Source: Parvibaculum sp. (GTDB lineage: Bacteria > Pseudomonadota > Alphaproteobacteria > Parvibaculales > Parvibaculaceae). From it: DNA of 64,000 bases. The position numbers were made by a program, and so were the translations under genes. How positions within the stretch are numbered: position 1 is the first letter of the stretch; every line of letters starts with the position of its first letter. The notes below the pieces were generated by a model. It had not been told where the DNA came from and searched no databases. It saw only the letters and a list, made by a program, of their open reading frames with translations. Shown here piece after piece: positions 1-59,774 of the stretch. The stretch is from positions 79,849-143,848 of the forward strand of contig JAUSLL010000018.1 of NCBI GenBank assembly GCA_030649335.1, in the 5' to 3' direction.

Positions 1-588
1 TCCGTCGAGGTTGATCAGGGGGAAGACGCGCACCTCGCCCGCAATGCGCAATGCCTCGCGCATCGACGCCAGATGAAACGCGCCATCAAGCTCGTCGCCA
101 TAGAGAAACAACAAATGCGAGATGAGCGCGACATCGAAAGAACCGTCGCCGCACGGCAATTGCGGCAAAGCACCGGCGATATAGCGAGACGCACCATGCA
201 TTGCAAAGTCGGCGAGGAAAAGCTCAAGCGCCGCACGACGACGCTGATGCACGAGCGGCTCCGACCCGTAGAACGCCCAGTTGAAGCGATAGGACGCGGC
301 CCGCATACCCTCGCGCATCGCCTTGGCCGTGTTTTCAAACTGTGACGCAATCGCCTGACCATCAAAGGCATAGATCGGATCAACCGCCGTCACGCTGAAG
401 CCCCGTGCGGGCGCCTCCGCCGCAAATGATGATGGTCCGCCGCCGATATCAAGAAGCCTTGTTCCGACCGGCAAATCGGTCAGCGCAAAATAAGCGTCGT
501 ACTCATCAAGTCGTCGCCCCCACGGCGCGATGCCATCAAGGTCGAATTCCTTGTGGTGCCGCGGTAGGAACGTTTGTGTCTCTGTCAT
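1..588 (-). CDS. class I SAM-dependent methyltransferase, cut by the window edge
   Basis: The reading frame is open from an ATG at 588 to the left edge, so about 196 N-terminal residues are visible and the C-terminus is missing. A glycine-rich SAM-binding motif (LLDIGGGPS) lies near residue 45, followed by an acidic strand end (TAVDP) and a later post-motif segment (SFDVALISHLLFLY), the order seen in Rossmann-fold methyltransferases. The start has a good ribosome site (GGAGAAGAAA). The substrate is unknown. It is the first gene after a tryptophan-type attenuator, so its expression probably tracks charged tRNA-Trp. No tryptophan-pathway motif is visible in the part present. Confidence 0.8.
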   Translation of the reverse strand, partial: MTETQTFLPRHHKEFDLDGIAPWGRRLDEYDAYFALTDLPVGTRLLDIGGGPSSFAAEAPARGFSVTAVDPIYAFDGQAIASQFENTAKAMREGMRAASYRFNWAFYGSEPLVHQRRRAALELFLADFAMHGASRYIAGALPQLPCGDGSFDVALISHLLFLYGDELDGAFHLASMREALRIAGEVRVFPLINLDG

Positions 589-655: not shown

Positions 656-684
656 AAAAAAGCCGCCTCCAAAACGGGGCGGCC
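656..684 (-). terminator. attenuator terminator upstream of the methyltransferase gene
   Basis: On the minus strand GCCGCC..GGCGGC forms a GC-rich hairpin with a TTTT-containing loop, followed directly by six T residues (661-656). Its 5' arm (GGCCGCCC, 684-677) can instead pair with GGGTGGCC (722-715), with one G-U pair, giving an antiterminator. GGTGGCCC can also pair with upstream GGACCACC, which overlaps the tandem Trp codons. These are the 1:2, 2:3 and 3:4 pairings of a classical attenuator. It ends 68 bases before the methyltransferase ATG. Confidence 0.85.
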
Positions 685-723
685 AAACCGGAAAGTCGAT
701 ATGCGACATCGTTGGGCCACCCG

Positions 724-768
724 TCAGGTGGTCCACCACATGCCAAACATGCCGGACTTCGTTGTCAT
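724..768 (-). CDS. 14-residue leader peptide with tandem Trp codons
   Basis: The minus strand encodes MTTKSGMFGMWWTT and then TGA. A GAGG ribosome site lies 9 bases before the ATG; an in-frame ATG at 783 could extend the peptide by five residues. The two adjacent TGG codons (738-733) sit where a stalled ribosome would cover region 1 and free region 2 (722-715) to form the antiterminator. A ribosome that reaches the stop codon would cover region 2 and let the terminator form. This is the logic of trp operon leaders. Confidence 0.8.
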   Translation of the reverse strand: MTTKSGMFGMWWTT

Positions 769-807
769 CAGTCTGATCCTCATCTCAGGCACATCCTGAG
801 GATGCGG

Positions 808-836
808 AAATTACGCCAATCCGACGCGTCTGCCAA
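808..836 (-). promoter_or_regulatory. sigma-70-type promoter for the attenuated transcript
   Basis: On the minus strand TTGGCA (836-831) and TAATTT (813-808) are separated by exactly 17 bases. Transcription would start near 801, at a small hairpin (CTCAGG..CCTGAG, 800-784) just ahead of the leader peptide. Confidence 0.6.
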
Positions 837-1120: not shown

Positions 1121-2254
1121 ATGTTGACGAAACGCATGATCATCATGCTCGCTGTGACAGCATCCATCATCGGCGCGATCTTTCTGTTCCTGTTCGTCAA
1201 GAGCATCTTCATCGGCAAGTTCCTGTCGCAGATGCAGAGCGCCCCGCAAACGGTATCGACCGTCGTGGCAGGTTACGAACAATGGGAACCGACAATCAGC
1301 GCGGTCGGCACGTTGAAGGCCCAGCGCGGCACAGACATCACGCCGCAGCTTTCGGGCATCGTCTCTGAAGTCTCCTTCCAGTCAGACAGCGACGTCAAAG
1401 AAGGTGACCTGCTCATCAGCTTTGCCGCCGAAGACGATATCGCCAAGTTAAAGGCACTCGACTCCTCCGTCGATCTCGCCCGCCTCACCTATAACCGCAG
1501 CCGCGAACTTGTGCGCAGCCGCGCCGTCAGCCAAGCGCAGCTCGACACAGCCACAGCCAATCTGAAGAACGCCGAAGCGCAAGTGGCAGCCCAACAGGCA
1601 CTCGTCGACAAAAAACAAATCCGCGCGCCCTTCGACGGTCACGTCGGCATCCGTCTTGTCGATATCGGCCAGTTCCTGTCTGCCGGTCAGAAGGTCACAA
1701 CATTGCAGGCGCTTGATCCGATCTTCGTGGACTTCACGCTGCCCCAGCGCGAAGTGCGGCTCGCGTCCGTCGGTCAAACCGTCAACATCACGACAGACGC
1801 CTACCCCGGCGAAACTTTCAGCGGCAAAATTCTGGCCCTTGATCCCAAGCTCGACCCTGTGACACGCAACATCGCGGTGCGCGCCGAACTCGCCAATGCG
1901 GATCGCAAATTATTGCCCGGCATGTTTGCTTCCGTTGTCGTGGTGACGGGTCAGACGGAAAAAAAGCTGACGCTGCCGCAAACCGCCATCACCTATAACC
2001 CCTATGGCGAAACTGTTTTCCTCGCCGTCGAGGGCACACCTGATGCCGAAGGCAAAGTTCCGCTCACCGCCCGGCAGAGATTTGTAAAGACCGGCACCAC
2101 ACGCGGCGACCAAGTCGCCATTGTCGAAGGCCTTTCCGAAGGTGACGTCGTTGTCAGTAGCGGCCAGCTCAAAATCAAGAACGACACGCCGCTCGCCATC
2201 AACAATGAAGCGCCACTCCCCAACGACGCTGCGCCCCAGCCGCAGGACCAGTAA
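1121..2254 (+). CDS. RND efflux periplasmic adaptor subunit (HlyD/AcrA family)
   Basis: This is a 377-residue membrane-fusion protein that would link an inner-membrane RND pump to an outer-membrane channel. Residues 6-26 are a hydrophobic N-terminal anchor. A split biotinyl-lipoyl-like domain flanks a helical hairpin (about 105-165, rich in Ala, Gln and Glu), with RAPFDGHVGIRLVDIGQF marking the return into the lipoyl domain, then beta-barrel and membrane-proximal domains. The pump gene begins 6 bases after its stop, so the two are co-transcribed. No outer-membrane TolC-type gene is adjacent. The substrate cannot be told from sequence. Confidence 0.9.
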   Translation: MLTKRMIIMLAVTASIIGAIFLFLFVKSIFIGKFLSQMQSAPQTVSTVVAGYEQWEPTISAVGTLKAQRGTDITPQLSGIVSEVSFQSDSDVKEGDLLISFAAEDDIAKLKALDSSVDLARLTYNRSRELVRSRAVSQAQLDTATANLKNAEAQVAAQQALVDKKQIRAPFDGHVGIRLVDIGQFLSAGQKVTTLQALDPIFVDFTLPQREVRLASVGQTVNITTDAYPGETFSGKILALDPKLDPVTRNIAVRAELANADRKLLPGMFASVVVVTGQTEKKLTLPQTAITYNPYGETVFLAVEGTPDAEGKVPLTARQRFVKTGTTRGDQVAIVEGLSEGDVVVSSGQLKIKNDTPLAINNEAPLPNDAAPQPQDQ

Positions 2255-2260
2255 GCACAC

Positions 2261-5200
2261 ATGAACTTTACAGACATCTTCATTCGCCGACCTGTGCTCG
2301 CCACCGTCGTGAGCTTGCTCATCCTCGTGCTCGGCCTGCGCTCGGTCTCGCTGCTGCCGGTGCTGCAATATCCGCGCACAGAAAACGCTGTGGTAACAGT
2401 GTCCACCACTTACTTCGGCGCGAGTGCCGATCTTGTGGCGGGCTTCATCACGACGCCGCTTGAAAATTCCATCGCTCAGGCCAACGGCATCGATTATATG
2501 AACTCGATCAGCTCGCCGAGCTCGTCGGTCATTCAGGTGCAGATCCGCTTGAACTATGACAGTGCCAAGGCACTGACGGAGATCAACACCCGCGTCAACG
2601 CGGTGCGCAATCAGCTTCCGACCGAAGCACAACAACCGGTCATCACCATCTCTGTCGGTGAAACCATCAACAGCATGTACATCGGCTTTTCGTCGGATGT
2701 GCTCGCCAACAACCAGATCAGCGACTATCTCCTACGCGTCGTCGCGCCAAAACTACAGGCCGTTGAGGGCGTACAACAAACAGAGTTTCTCGGCGAAAAG
2801 CGCTTTGCGCTGCGTGTCTGGATGGACCCCGACAAACTCTCTGCCTATGGCCTGACTGCCACAGACATTCGCACGGCCCTTGCCCGCAACAGCTTTCTGT
2901 CCGCATTGGGCTCGACCAAAGGCCAAATGGTGCAGGTTGATCTCACAGCCTCAACCAGCGCGGCATCGCTCGACGAATTCCGCAACCTGATCGTCAAAAC
3001 CTCCAACGGCGCCTCCGTTCGCCTCGAAGACGTGGCCAATATCACGCTGGGTTCAGAAGACTACGAATCCGCGGGCTATTTCGACGGCAAGCCCTCCGTG
3101 CAAATCGGCATTAAGGTCGCACCGACAGCCAATCTTCTCGACGTGATGAAACGTGTCCGGAAAATTTTTCCCGATATTCAAAAACAGCTGCCCGAAGGCC
3201 TGAACGGCGCCATTGCTTATGACGCCACGAAATTCGTCAATAGCTCGATCAATGAAGTTGTGCGCACGCTCGTTGAAGCCCTCATCATTGTAACGCTTGT
3301 GGTCTTCGCCTTTCTCGGCTCGCCCCGCTCCGTCCTTATCCCGACACTCGCCATTCCGCTGTCCCTCATCGGCGCGTTCAGCTTCATGGTGTTGTTCGGC
3401 TTCTCGATCAATCTTCTGACTCTGTTGGCACTGGTCTTATCCATCGGACTTGTCGTGGACGACGCGATCATCGTCGTCGAAAACGTCAACCGGCATCTGG
3501 AAGCAGGTGAACCACCGGCCAAGGCGGCCAGTATGGCCGCTCGTGAATTGAGCGGCCCGATTATCACCATGACCATCGTGCTGATTGCCGTTTACATCCC
3601 GATCGGCTTCATGGGCGGGCTGACCGGCTCACTCTTCACCGAGTTTGCTTTCACACTTGTCGGTGCCGTGACCATATCTGCCATCGTCGCGCTGACGCTC
3701 TCTCCCATGATGTGCGCGCGCTTTCTGAAACCTCACAATGATCCCGATACGAGCGAATGGGAGAAGCGCCTCGTCAATTTCATCGACGACCGCTTCGAAC
3801 GCCTGCGCAAAGGCTACCTGCGCCTGCTCCATTCGAGCCTCAACGAATTGCCAGTGGTCGCCGTCTTTGCCGGTATTGTCGTCGTCAGCATCTACTTCTT
3901 CTACGGCGCTTCCAAAACCGAACTTGCCCCGCAGGAAGATCAGGGCATCGTCATCGGCTTCATCACCAATGCACCCAATGCAACCTTGGCGCAGCGCCAG
4001 ATCACGGCGGCCAAAGTGTTCAAGACCTATGCGACACATCCGGAAATGGATCATGTGTTTCAGGCCGCAGCCCCCTCGCAATCGGTTGCGGGCCTCGTCA
4101 CCACGCCATGGGAAGAGCGGACTGTCTCGGCAACAGAACTTCAGAACAAATTGCAGGCCGAGCTGAGCCGCATCACGGAAGCACGCGTCGTCATGTTCCA
4201 GCCGCCGCCGCTGCCCGGTGCGCGCGGTCTGCCGGTTTCGCTCGTCATCCAGACAACCGAACCATTCGATCAACTATACGACGTGTCTCAGGACTTGCTG
4301 GCAAAGGTGCAGGCAAGCGGCAAGTTCATTTTCATTGATACGGACCTCAAGTTCGACAAGCCGCAAGCGGAACTCATCATCGACCGTGACAAGGTTGCCC
4401 AGATGGGCCTGACGATGAACGACGTCGGCGCAGCCATGTCGTCGATGCTTGGCGGCGGCTATGTCAATTACTTCAGCCTGTCTGGTCGTTCGTATAAGGT
4501 TATTCCGCAAGTTCAGCAAAAATATCGACTGAACATCGACCAACTTGCAAATTATCACATCCAGACAGCCACCGGCGCATCCGTGCCGCTGTCCACGATT
4601 GCACATTTCGAAACGAAGACCGTTCCGGAAACGCTCAATCATTTTCAGCAGCTGAATGCAGCGACACTTTCCGGCATGCCCACACCCGGCGTTACAACCG
4701 GCGACGCGCTGGCATATATCAGCGACCTTGCGACCAAGACCCTGCCGCAGGGCTATACAATCGACTATGCAGGTCCCTCGCGTCAGTTCATGCAGGAATC
4801 GAGCGCCATCGTCGTGACTTTCTTCTTCGCGCTGATCATCATCTTTCTAACACTGGCCGCGCAGTTTGAAAGTTTCCGCGATCCGATCATCATTCTGATC
4901 ACGGTCCCCATGTCGATCTGCGGTGCCTTGCTGTTCATCGTCACCGGCATCGGCGGCGCGAGCCTCAATATCTACACGCAAGTGGGCCTCGTGACGCTCA
5001 TCGGCCTGATCAGCAAGCACGGCATTCTCATCGTTGAGTTTGCCAATACACTTCAGGAAGAAGGCATGAGCAAACGTGAAGCCATTGAGGAAGCAACGAG
5101 CATCCGTCTGCGTCCGATCCTTATGACGACGGCGGCCATGGTGCTCGGCGTGTTGCCCCTCATTCTGGCCAGCGGCGCAGGTGCAGCTTCGCGTTACAAC

Positions 5201-5350
5201 CTCGGCCTCGTCATCGCGACAGGGTTGGCCATCGGCACATTGTTCACGCTGTTTGTTGTGCCCGCCATGTACCTGATGCTTGCCGAAGAACATTCGGATG
5301 AAGACGAGGAAGACTTCGAAGGAGAAGACGGCACGCTCGCCAACGCCTGA
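2261..5350 (+). CDS. RND multidrug efflux pump, inner-membrane subunit (AcrB/MexB type)
   Basis: At 1029 residues this has the full length of a hydrophobe/amphiphile RND transporter, a proton-driven trimeric exporter with twelve membrane helices and two large periplasmic loops. The TM4 signature GLVVDDAIIVVENV carries the proton-relay aspartates at 400 and 401. The TM10 lysine equivalent is in GLISKHGILIVEF. The C-terminus is strongly acidic (SDEDEEDFEGEDG). It directly follows its adaptor gene. No local TetR- or LysR-type regulator is visible. Confidence 0.95.
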   Translation: MNFTDIFIRRPVLATVVSLLILVLGLRSVSLLPVLQYPRTENAVVTVSTTYFGASADLVAGFITTPLENSIAQANGIDYMNSISSPSSSVIQVQIRLNYDSAKALTEINTRVNAVRNQLPTEAQQPVITISVGETINSMYIGFSSDVLANNQISDYLLRVVAPKLQAVEGVQQTEFLGEKRFALRVWMDPDKLSAYGLTATDIRTALARNSFLSALGSTKGQMVQVDLTASTSAASLDEFRNLIVKTSNGASVRLEDVANITLGSEDYESAGYFDGKPSVQIGIKVAPTANLLDVMKRVRKIFPDIQKQLPEGLNGAIAYDATKFVNSSINEVVRTLVEALIIVTLVVFAFLGSPRSVLIPTLAIPLSLIGAFSFMVLFGFSINLLTLLALVLSIGLVVDDAIIVVENVNRHLEAGEPPAKAASMAARELSGPIITMTIVLIAVYIPIGFMGGLTGSLFTEFAFTLVGAVTISAIVALTLSPMMCARFLKPHNDPDTSEWEKRLVNFIDDRFERLRKGYLRLLHSSLNELPVVAVFAGIVVVSIYFFYGASKTELAPQEDQGIVIGFITNAPNATLAQRQITAAKVFKTYATHPEMDHVFQAAAPSQSVAGLVTTPWEERTVSATELQNKLQAELSRITEARVVMFQPPPLPGARGLPVSLVIQTTEPFDQLYDVSQDLLAKVQASGKFIFIDTDLKFDKPQAELIIDRDKVAQMGLTMNDVGAAMSSMLGGGYVNYFSLSGRSYKVIPQVQQKYRLNIDQLANYHIQTATGASVPLSTIAHFETKTVPETLNHFQQLNAATLSGMPTPGVTTGDALAYISDLATKTLPQGYTIDYAGPSRQFMQESSAIVVTFFFALIIIFLTLAAQFESFRDPIIILITVPMSICGALLFIVTGIGGASLNIYTQVGLVTLIGLISKHGILIVEFANTLQEEGMSKREAIEEATSIRLRPILMTTAAMVLGVLPLILASGAGAASRYNLGLVIATGLAIGTLFTLFVVPAMYLMLAEEHSDEDEEDFEGEDGTLANA

Positions 5351-59495: not shown

Positions 59496-59523
59496 GCTTA
59501 GGTGCATGGCAGAGAAAAAGGGT

Positions 59524-59584
59524 GGTCGGTCGGACTCATTGGCTTTTCAGAGGAGGCCACTCCACCACCACGTTCCGACCGACC
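59524..59584. ncRNA. possible structured RNA between rpmG and pleD
   Basis: Arms GGTCGGTCGGA (59524-59534) and TCCGACCGACC (59574-59584) pair perfectly over a 39-base loop that contains a smaller GGCTTTTCAGAGGAGGCC-like hairpin. No reading frame here looks real. Whether it is transcribed is not shown. Confidence 0.35.
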
Positions 59585-59774
59585 GTGCCTCACGGACCCA
59601 GGAGATGCGGCGGACCTGAGCACCCCGCGAGGACACACATCGCTGCCTCAAACCTGTATCCGTTCACCCCCCAGCAAAGGGAAACAGGCGTGACAGCGAA
59701 ACTTGGAACGTAATTCCTAGCATTACGACTGTCCCAAATAAAGTCACATCATAGATACACCCCATAAAGGTTTG

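Follow-up and report, generated by a model that had tools for sequence, protein, structure and literature searches.

The leader element at 656..836

The 64-kb stretch of Parvibaculum sp. DNA analyzed here (64,000 nucleotides, referred to below as the window) carries on its minus strand, at positions 656..836, a compact element with the parts of a transcription attenuator; all positions given for it are on that strand. It begins with promoter-like boxes read from the sequence, a -35 box TTGGCA (831..836) and a -10 box TAATTT (808..813; TAGATT-like in its own genus), separated by 17 bases. A Shine-Dalgarno sequence GAGGA (777..781), recognized in the sequence and by comparison of loci, precedes a leader ORF of 14 codons, MTTKSGMFGMWWTT, which runs from an ATG at 768 to a TGA stop at 724 (724..768) and is assigned from its sequence and conservation. 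Two adjacent Trp codons, TGG TGG (733..738), are the putative control codons.

Around and behind these codons lie four regions with mutually exclusive pairings. Region 2, GGGTGGCC (715..722), can pair through its GGTGG with region 1, CCACC (727..731), or alternatively over 8 bp with region 3, GGCCGCCC (677..684). The latter, assigned by comparison and identity, is both the antiterminator partner of region 2 and the 5′ arm of an intrinsic terminator, whose 3′ arm is region 4, GGCGGC (662..667; placed by folding and helix search). The terminator hairpin GCCGCC/GGCGGC thus spans 683-662, and a run of six T (656..661) stands behind it. The fold of the free full 141-nt RNA consists of 1:2 plus 3:4. 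A leader ORF with adjacent Trp codons, together with three mutually exclusive pairings and a T-run terminator, had been described at this place by an earlier sequence-only reading, and the promoter pair with its 17-base spacing, the 14-codon leader and the Trp codons were all confirmed on the sequence.

A terminator and a short ORF might be chance neighbors with no regulation between them, and the fold gives this idea something to rest on: compared with shuffled sequences the 141-nt leader RNA has no excess stability (z-score -1.03; 32 of 200 shuffles equally stable). A scan of the window counted 10 short ORFs that contain TGGTGG in frame, where 200 simulated first-order Markov sequences have a mean of 3.5. 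The element at 656..836 is the only one of these with a terminator behind it, and the same 200 sequences give a mean of 0.055 for that combination. This simulation and the conservation across loci described below, which is the stronger test of the element, make mere coincidence exceedingly unlikely.

We also note two other features of the window. A membrane fusion protein gene followed by a transporter gene, together an RND-type efflux pair (1121-5350, plus strand; identified by eye from the translations), runs divergently from the attenuator promoter, and an EcpR1 (Atu_C6, RF02500) sRNA matches at 59519-59635 (minus strand) with 91 bits.

The methyltransferase gene

The gene behind the leader begins with a start codon at 588, downstream of the terminator, and fills positions 1..588 of the minus strand; its 3′ end lies outside the window, and the complete gene of 238 aa is found at L002:13721-14437. 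The 196 aa inside the window match Pfam Methyltransf_11 (PF08241) with 23.7 bits, above the curated cut-off of 21.2, and the AlphaFold structure model (pLDDT 92.7) has the matching fold, so this is a class I SAM-dependent methyltransferase (MT below); the sequence-only reading had likewise named a SAM-dependent methyltransferase. An NCBIfam scan of the same 196 of 238 aa matched no family, the scans made of this part matched no rRNA methyltransferase family, and a PDB sequence search found no relative at E up to 0.1. Structure searches with the model (Foldseek, VIA-align) returned many different class I methyltransferases with tied Z, and from these generic matches nothing was gained about the substrate.

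An operon extending to the left of position 1 had also been envisaged. This idea is rejected: MT ends at L002:13721 and the next gene, alpha/beta-hydrolase-like as named by eye, is convergent, so that the transcription unit is a single gene. The Pfam and NCBIfam scans and the full ORF agree with the earlier statement that the target is neither trpE nor another gene of the usual regulon, MT being no gene for tryptophan biosynthesis, uptake or tRNA charging.

The MT family is broad. We matched 98 relatives and kept 79 loci, and the family is also present in Verrucomicrobiota, Gemmatimonadota, Nitrospirota, Cyanobacteriota and haloarchaea. A scan of 10 neighbor genes around distant MT relatives found no common theme and no tryptophan gene. 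Of the Nitrospirota copies, L084, L093 and L098 adjoin Cys/Met PLP enzymes, and L092 and L093 adjoin a further methyltransferase; two Latescibacterota copies adjoin a redoxin, and one cyanobacterial copy adjoins an RlmL-like gene.

Conservation of the leader in Parvibaculaceae

MT is encoded in 27 of 40 genomes of the family, 24 of 27 in its own genus and 3 of 13 in other genera. A search for the leader before these orthologous genes, which the sequence-only reading had proposed, found it in all 27 loci, with Trp-Trp in 26 and Trp-Arg in one. Nor did the codons or pairings prove to be unconserved, the outcome named beforehand as speaking against the idea. Mean pairwise identity over the 27 loci is 0.99 for the Trp codons, 0.79 for regions 1-2 and 0.94 for region 3. 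Leader codons 1-10 and the spacer each have 0.43, and the flanks 0.31-0.35. Typical leader peptides are MTISHVTNGAWWTT, MNAMAFAMRNWWTT and MIEPTRVNSVWWTT, and five loci (L008, L009, L012, L014 and L020) have a later stop, reading on past WWTT.

The Trp-Arg exception (L025; named record L049) reads TGG CGG. A single T to C change turns its second Trp codon into Arg; apart from this base its leader of 102 bases matches that of L026 exactly, and the change may be either decay or an assembly error.

A -35 box was found by pattern (TTGGCA or TTGGCG) in 23 of the 24 own-genus loci, and a TA-initial hexamer follows exactly 17 nt past it in 22 of these 23, the exception being L008 with TGGATT. The one locus missed by the -35 pattern, L015, reads TTGGCA-17-TAGATT by eye. 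Conservation of the promoter-like boxes is shown in this way for the own-genus loci. The T-run in the 24 own-genus loci has 4 T in 16, 5 in six and 6 in two.

The named leader-bearing relatives are largely the family genomes over again, with the same leader contig coordinates in, for example, G012/G014 and Parvibaculum indicum/P. sedimenti or G038 and Tepidicaulis marinus, and for this reason they were kept out of the counts. They also place Parvibaculum within the window's own genus.

Pairings, spacing and predicted folding

We searched for the best ungapped helix, with G-U allowed and in windows of our own choosing, in the 27 family MT loci, in the more distant MT locus L059 and in a trpS locus, L142 (both described below). 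Every one of the 29 loci (28 MT loci plus L142) can form the three helices, with 5-9 bp for 1:2, 5-9 bp for 2:3 and 7-10 bp for 3:4, which bears out the three pairings claimed for the window. In 23 of the 24 own-genus loci the 2:3 helix is the 8-bp GGGTGGCC/GGCCGCCC, and in L008 it has 5 bp. Two loci, L029 and L030, have an A to G change in region 1 together with a U to C change in region 2, and region 2 there still pairs with both of its partners.

The spacing is narrowly kept. Counted from base 1 of the leading Trp codon, the 2:3 helix starts after 15 or 16 nt in the 27 family loci, 18 in L059 and 20 in L142, and the leader stop codon lies at an offset of 12, 15 or 27. A ribosome covers about 15 nt past the first base of its P-site codon. 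With this footprint, a ribosome at either Trp codon would cover region 1 and reach just to the border of region 2, whereas region 2 would be covered by a ribosome at the stop codon; the measured distances fit such an arrangement, in line with the earlier statement that the geometry suits ribosome stalling. The spacing is thus that of an attenuator, a ribosome stalled at Trp being predicted to mask region 1 only and a ribosome at the stop to mask region 2.

Folding of the RNA up to region 3 points the same way in most respects. With a ribosome placed at the second Trp codon, region 2 makes at least 5 pairs with the region 3 arm in all 28 MT leaders, with free energies at 30°C of -15.6 to -29.5 kcal/mol. 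With the ribosome at the stop codon these are -3.0 to -12.4 kcal/mol, and 14 of 28 leaders still have at least 5 predicted pairs into the arm, which was bounded loosely and includes bases upstream of region 3. When no ribosome is placed, folding up to region 3 mostly favors 2:3 over 1:2, with at least 5 1:2 pairs in 5 of 28 leaders. A protective 1:2 hairpin in untranslated RNA is therefore unsure and we do not claim one.

Specificity of the leader

A covariance model was built from the 27 family leaders, so its matches at those loci are its own training set. In the 40 family genomes the 27 MT leaders score 42-104 bits, as follows from the way the model was built, and no other place exceeds 35.6 bits. 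The maximum in the 13 genomes that lack MT is 31.4 bits, so these hold nothing comparable to the leader. Sixteen weaker matches in the family look like plain terminators; 15 have no WW in any frame, and the other, L206, has TGGTGG in one frame and by eye is not a leader.

Among 289 genomes of the class, 24 have a match at E 0.001, the matches outside the family including L142. When 26 loci of the class (22 in other families, 4 in Parvibaculaceae) were screened for short ATG-started ORFs with WW, only L142 had one. The model is narrow: the attenuator before trpE in G004, described below, was not among its matches. A search of 385 class genomes with a pattern of the compact layout gave 5 matches. 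Two of them, G011 (MT) and G220 (trpS), are real, and the other three fall within genes; since the reversed control pattern gave 10 matches, this search is no survey.

Similar leaders before other genes and other methyltransferases

The locus L142, in genome G220 of another alphaproteobacterial family, has a compact WW attenuator at 1501-1590 (minus strand) with the leader peptide MVNRPHLPAFIWWRSF, followed by a stop. It forms the same three helices as the MT leaders and was outside the training set of the covariance model. The gene behind it, at 445-1452, is trpS, a tryptophan--tRNA ligase by NCBIfam TIGR00233 (230.5 bits, cut-off 176.75). The device, which turned up here unsought, thus occurs before a true tryptophan gene as well.

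Leaders before trpE were scanned separately. In all, 29 of 30 loci could be placed, and one has a WW leader: L189:1270-1370 (plus strand) in G004, a genome of a sister genus that lacks MT. Its leader, MNVRERLMMYWWRN and a stop, ends in MMYWWRN* and has a GC hairpin and T-run of its own; as a whole it is built differently from the MT leaders. The other five trpE loci fetched from the genus of G004 have no WW attenuator (four by scan, one by eye), and in the window's own genus no WW leader was found within 500 bases of trpE (22 loci, from 22 of 27 genomes).

These leaders bear on whether the element senses tryptophan or, more generally, slowed translation (for example under antibiotics), in which case MT would be a stress gene. 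Leader peptides can sense inhibitors, and in S. meliloti peTrpL is tied to tetracycline resistance (PMC7298713). Against such a role, what stays invariant in the MT leaders is the pair of Trp codons and their distance from region 2. Drug-dependent stalling would need the N-terminal peptide of the leader, which is variable here. Moreover, trpS is preceded by a leader of this layout, and trpE by one of different build. We consider it very improbable that the leader mainly senses translation in general, and return to a response to tryptophan tRNA as the preferred reading.

Among the 79 named MT loci, WW leaders of this layout occur only in the Parvibaculaceae-type loci and in L059, most of the outside relatives having none. 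L059, from a Rhodovibrionaceae MAG and likewise outside the training set of the covariance model, has a Trp-Trp leader, MPSLSPIARFWWTPF and a stop, of the same layout before an MT that is 47% identical; this MT follows F0 ATP synthase genes (atpF) and has ccrM- and rnhB-like genes next to it, all gene names being assigned by eye from translated sequence. On the MT tree of 78 rows the WW label needs three changes, forced by well-supported branches: one for the Parvibaculaceae group, one for the Trp-Arg copy and one for L059, which stands separately. From the sequences this distribution fits two recruitments, or one old recruitment with losses.

A further leader, in L063 (identical to L254 over 600 bases), lies 160 to 51 bases before a 53% identical MT whose branch is next to the Parvibaculaceae MTs. 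It encodes MTSVQRLSREFYWFA and a stop, with Phe-Tyr-Trp-Phe (FYWF) as control codons; the stop lies in the loop of an 8-bp 1:2 hairpin (by eye), and GGGCCGCC...GGCGGCC and TTCTTC follow. This speaks for a layout that keeps codons and not the base sequence TGGTGG. The same locus speaks to a leader like that of TnaC, in which free tryptophan and the nascent peptide together stall the ribosome, a comparison invited by the short peptide and its Trp residues close to the C-terminal end. TnaC requires specific distant residues, whereas here WW and mostly the next Thr are kept, and in L063/L254 WW is replaced by FYWF; we give stalling of the TnaC kind practically no weight beside control by Trp codons.

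The remaining alphaproteobacterial MT relatives that were fetched (L197-L200, L256-L261) have no WW leader. Where MT relatives lack the family leader, the region before the gene was searched for terminators, and 14 of 65 rows have a hairpin (some loci appear twice), and among these 65 rows a leader of this layout is present only in L063/L254 and in L255, which is the L059 locus. None of the WW short ORFs seen before L075, L076, L086, L094 and L101 has this layout. As a side observation, the region from about 290 to 100 bases ahead of the MT in L094 (an Opitutaceae MAG; MT 41% identical) has a GTG-started ORF of 33 codons with three adjacent Trp codons, a AAGGCCCGG stretch able to compete for a GC-rich terminator, and TTTTT; this could be another Trp attenuator or chance.

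Comparison with known attenuators

Like rhizobial trpL (rnTrpL; RF02552 RcsR1), the element has a 14-codon leader, adjacent Trp codons near the stop and a GC-rich terminator; the Rfam RF02552 consensus contains UGG UGG UGG GCU CGC UAA. In S. meliloti trpE(G) is controlled by attenuation with a 14-aa leader peptide, and the trpL RNA starts at the ATG of the leader (PMC7298713). The two differ in target, trpE(G) there and MT here, and in their start signals, the RNA start being at the ATG in S. meliloti and a GAGGA preceding the ATG here.

The RF02552 model gives 28.6 bits at the window's element (gathering score 60), the better of two matches in its own genome, and none of the 40 family genomes reaches the gathering score. 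In G016 a relative's leader scores 40.7 bits and a place with no WW leader 38 bits, and of 14 control genomes 8 have a match to the model when E values up to 1 are allowed. For these last two reasons an RF02552 score alone is no proof of homology.

The resemblance to RcsR1 raises another reading, that the product of interest is the terminated RNA itself (predicted at about 145 nt), acting in trans like rnTrpL/RcsR1 of S. meliloti. Besides the sub-threshold score here there is one of 38.5 bits in L018, and a review places the transcription of RcsR1 at the position that also gives the trpL attenuator RNA rnTrpL (PMC7143759). On the other side, the spacer between regions 2 and 3 is not conserved (0.46 in the genus), and family genomes without MT have nothing comparable. 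We regard it as quite unlikely that a trans-acting RNA is the main product; it could be a second role beside attenuation, which we continue to prefer.

The enterobacterial trp leader (RF00513) shares Trp codons, competing hairpins and a terminator with the element, and so the same logic. Unlike it, the window's leader has its stop directly behind region 1 and another target gene, and the RF00513 Trp_leader model has no match at the window, at or above its gathering score or otherwise. Candidate trpS attenuators (Streptomyces trpS2; PMC1262725) are likewise cases of Trp attenuation outside the biosynthetic operon, and they differ in that their target is an aminoacyl-tRNA synthetase, an obvious tryptophan gene. 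A stalling leader ahead of a methyltransferase gene is also what the erm-type leaders are. Those leaders sense macrolides through the nascent peptide, and unlike their targets MT, scanned over 196 of its 238 aa, has no match to an rRNA methyltransferase family.

From its sequence features we file the element as a putative Trp attenuator of the rhizobial trpL working type and as a member of neither Rfam family. The kind of device is known, and MT as its target is new. Our literature search, in which most subscription journals were not covered, found no report of this element and no paper containing both 'Parvibaculum' and 'attenuator'.

Proposed mechanism and biological meaning

The promoter-like boxes, leader ORF, Trp codons, pairings, terminator, spacing and conservation are established by sequence and comparison. 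On this basis the element is very probably a ribosome-mediated transcription attenuator before a lone MT gene, with read-through only when charged tryptophan tRNA is short. Under such a shortage the ribosome would halt at the Trp codons and cover region 1 (CCACC), leaving region 2 free to pair with region 3; the terminator 3:4 would then be blocked and the MT gene read. When tryptophan is plentiful the ribosome would reach the nearby stop codon and cover region 2, and 3:4 would end transcription. Several observations weigh against attenuation: the Trp-Arg locus L025, the z-score of -1.03, the unsure 1:2 hairpin, the 14 of 28 leaders with predicted pairs into the arm when the ribosome is at the stop, the T-run, which in 16 of the 24 own-genus loci is no longer than 4 T, the scarcity of such leaders among MT relatives outside the family, and a target gene with no shown link to tryptophan.

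The target of the predicted control lies outside the usual regulon. A Trp-codon attenuator stands on MT at two unlinked genomic places, in Parvibaculaceae and behind atpF in the Rhodovibrionaceae MAG, and the window's genus has the trp-type attenuator on MT and not on trpE (22 trpE loci). More tentatively, and with somewhat less than even confidence, we propose that starvation for tryptophan (or an aromatic amino acid) switches on methylation and that the MT family is a new enzyme of the tryptophan regulon. As part of the main reading, MT is predicted to be of use to cells starved for tryptophan or aromatics, its substrate most likely being a small molecule.

In the textbook cases, Trp attenuators control tryptophan genes. 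The clear one described here is set before the gene of a lone enzyme that has no known tie to tryptophan, and it is found in most of a genus and beyond it. The comparison also shows an attenuator changing its target gene and its control codons (WW, FYWF) with its geometry kept. The predicted regulation of such an enzyme thereby provides a handle on the function of an uncharacterized methyltransferase family.
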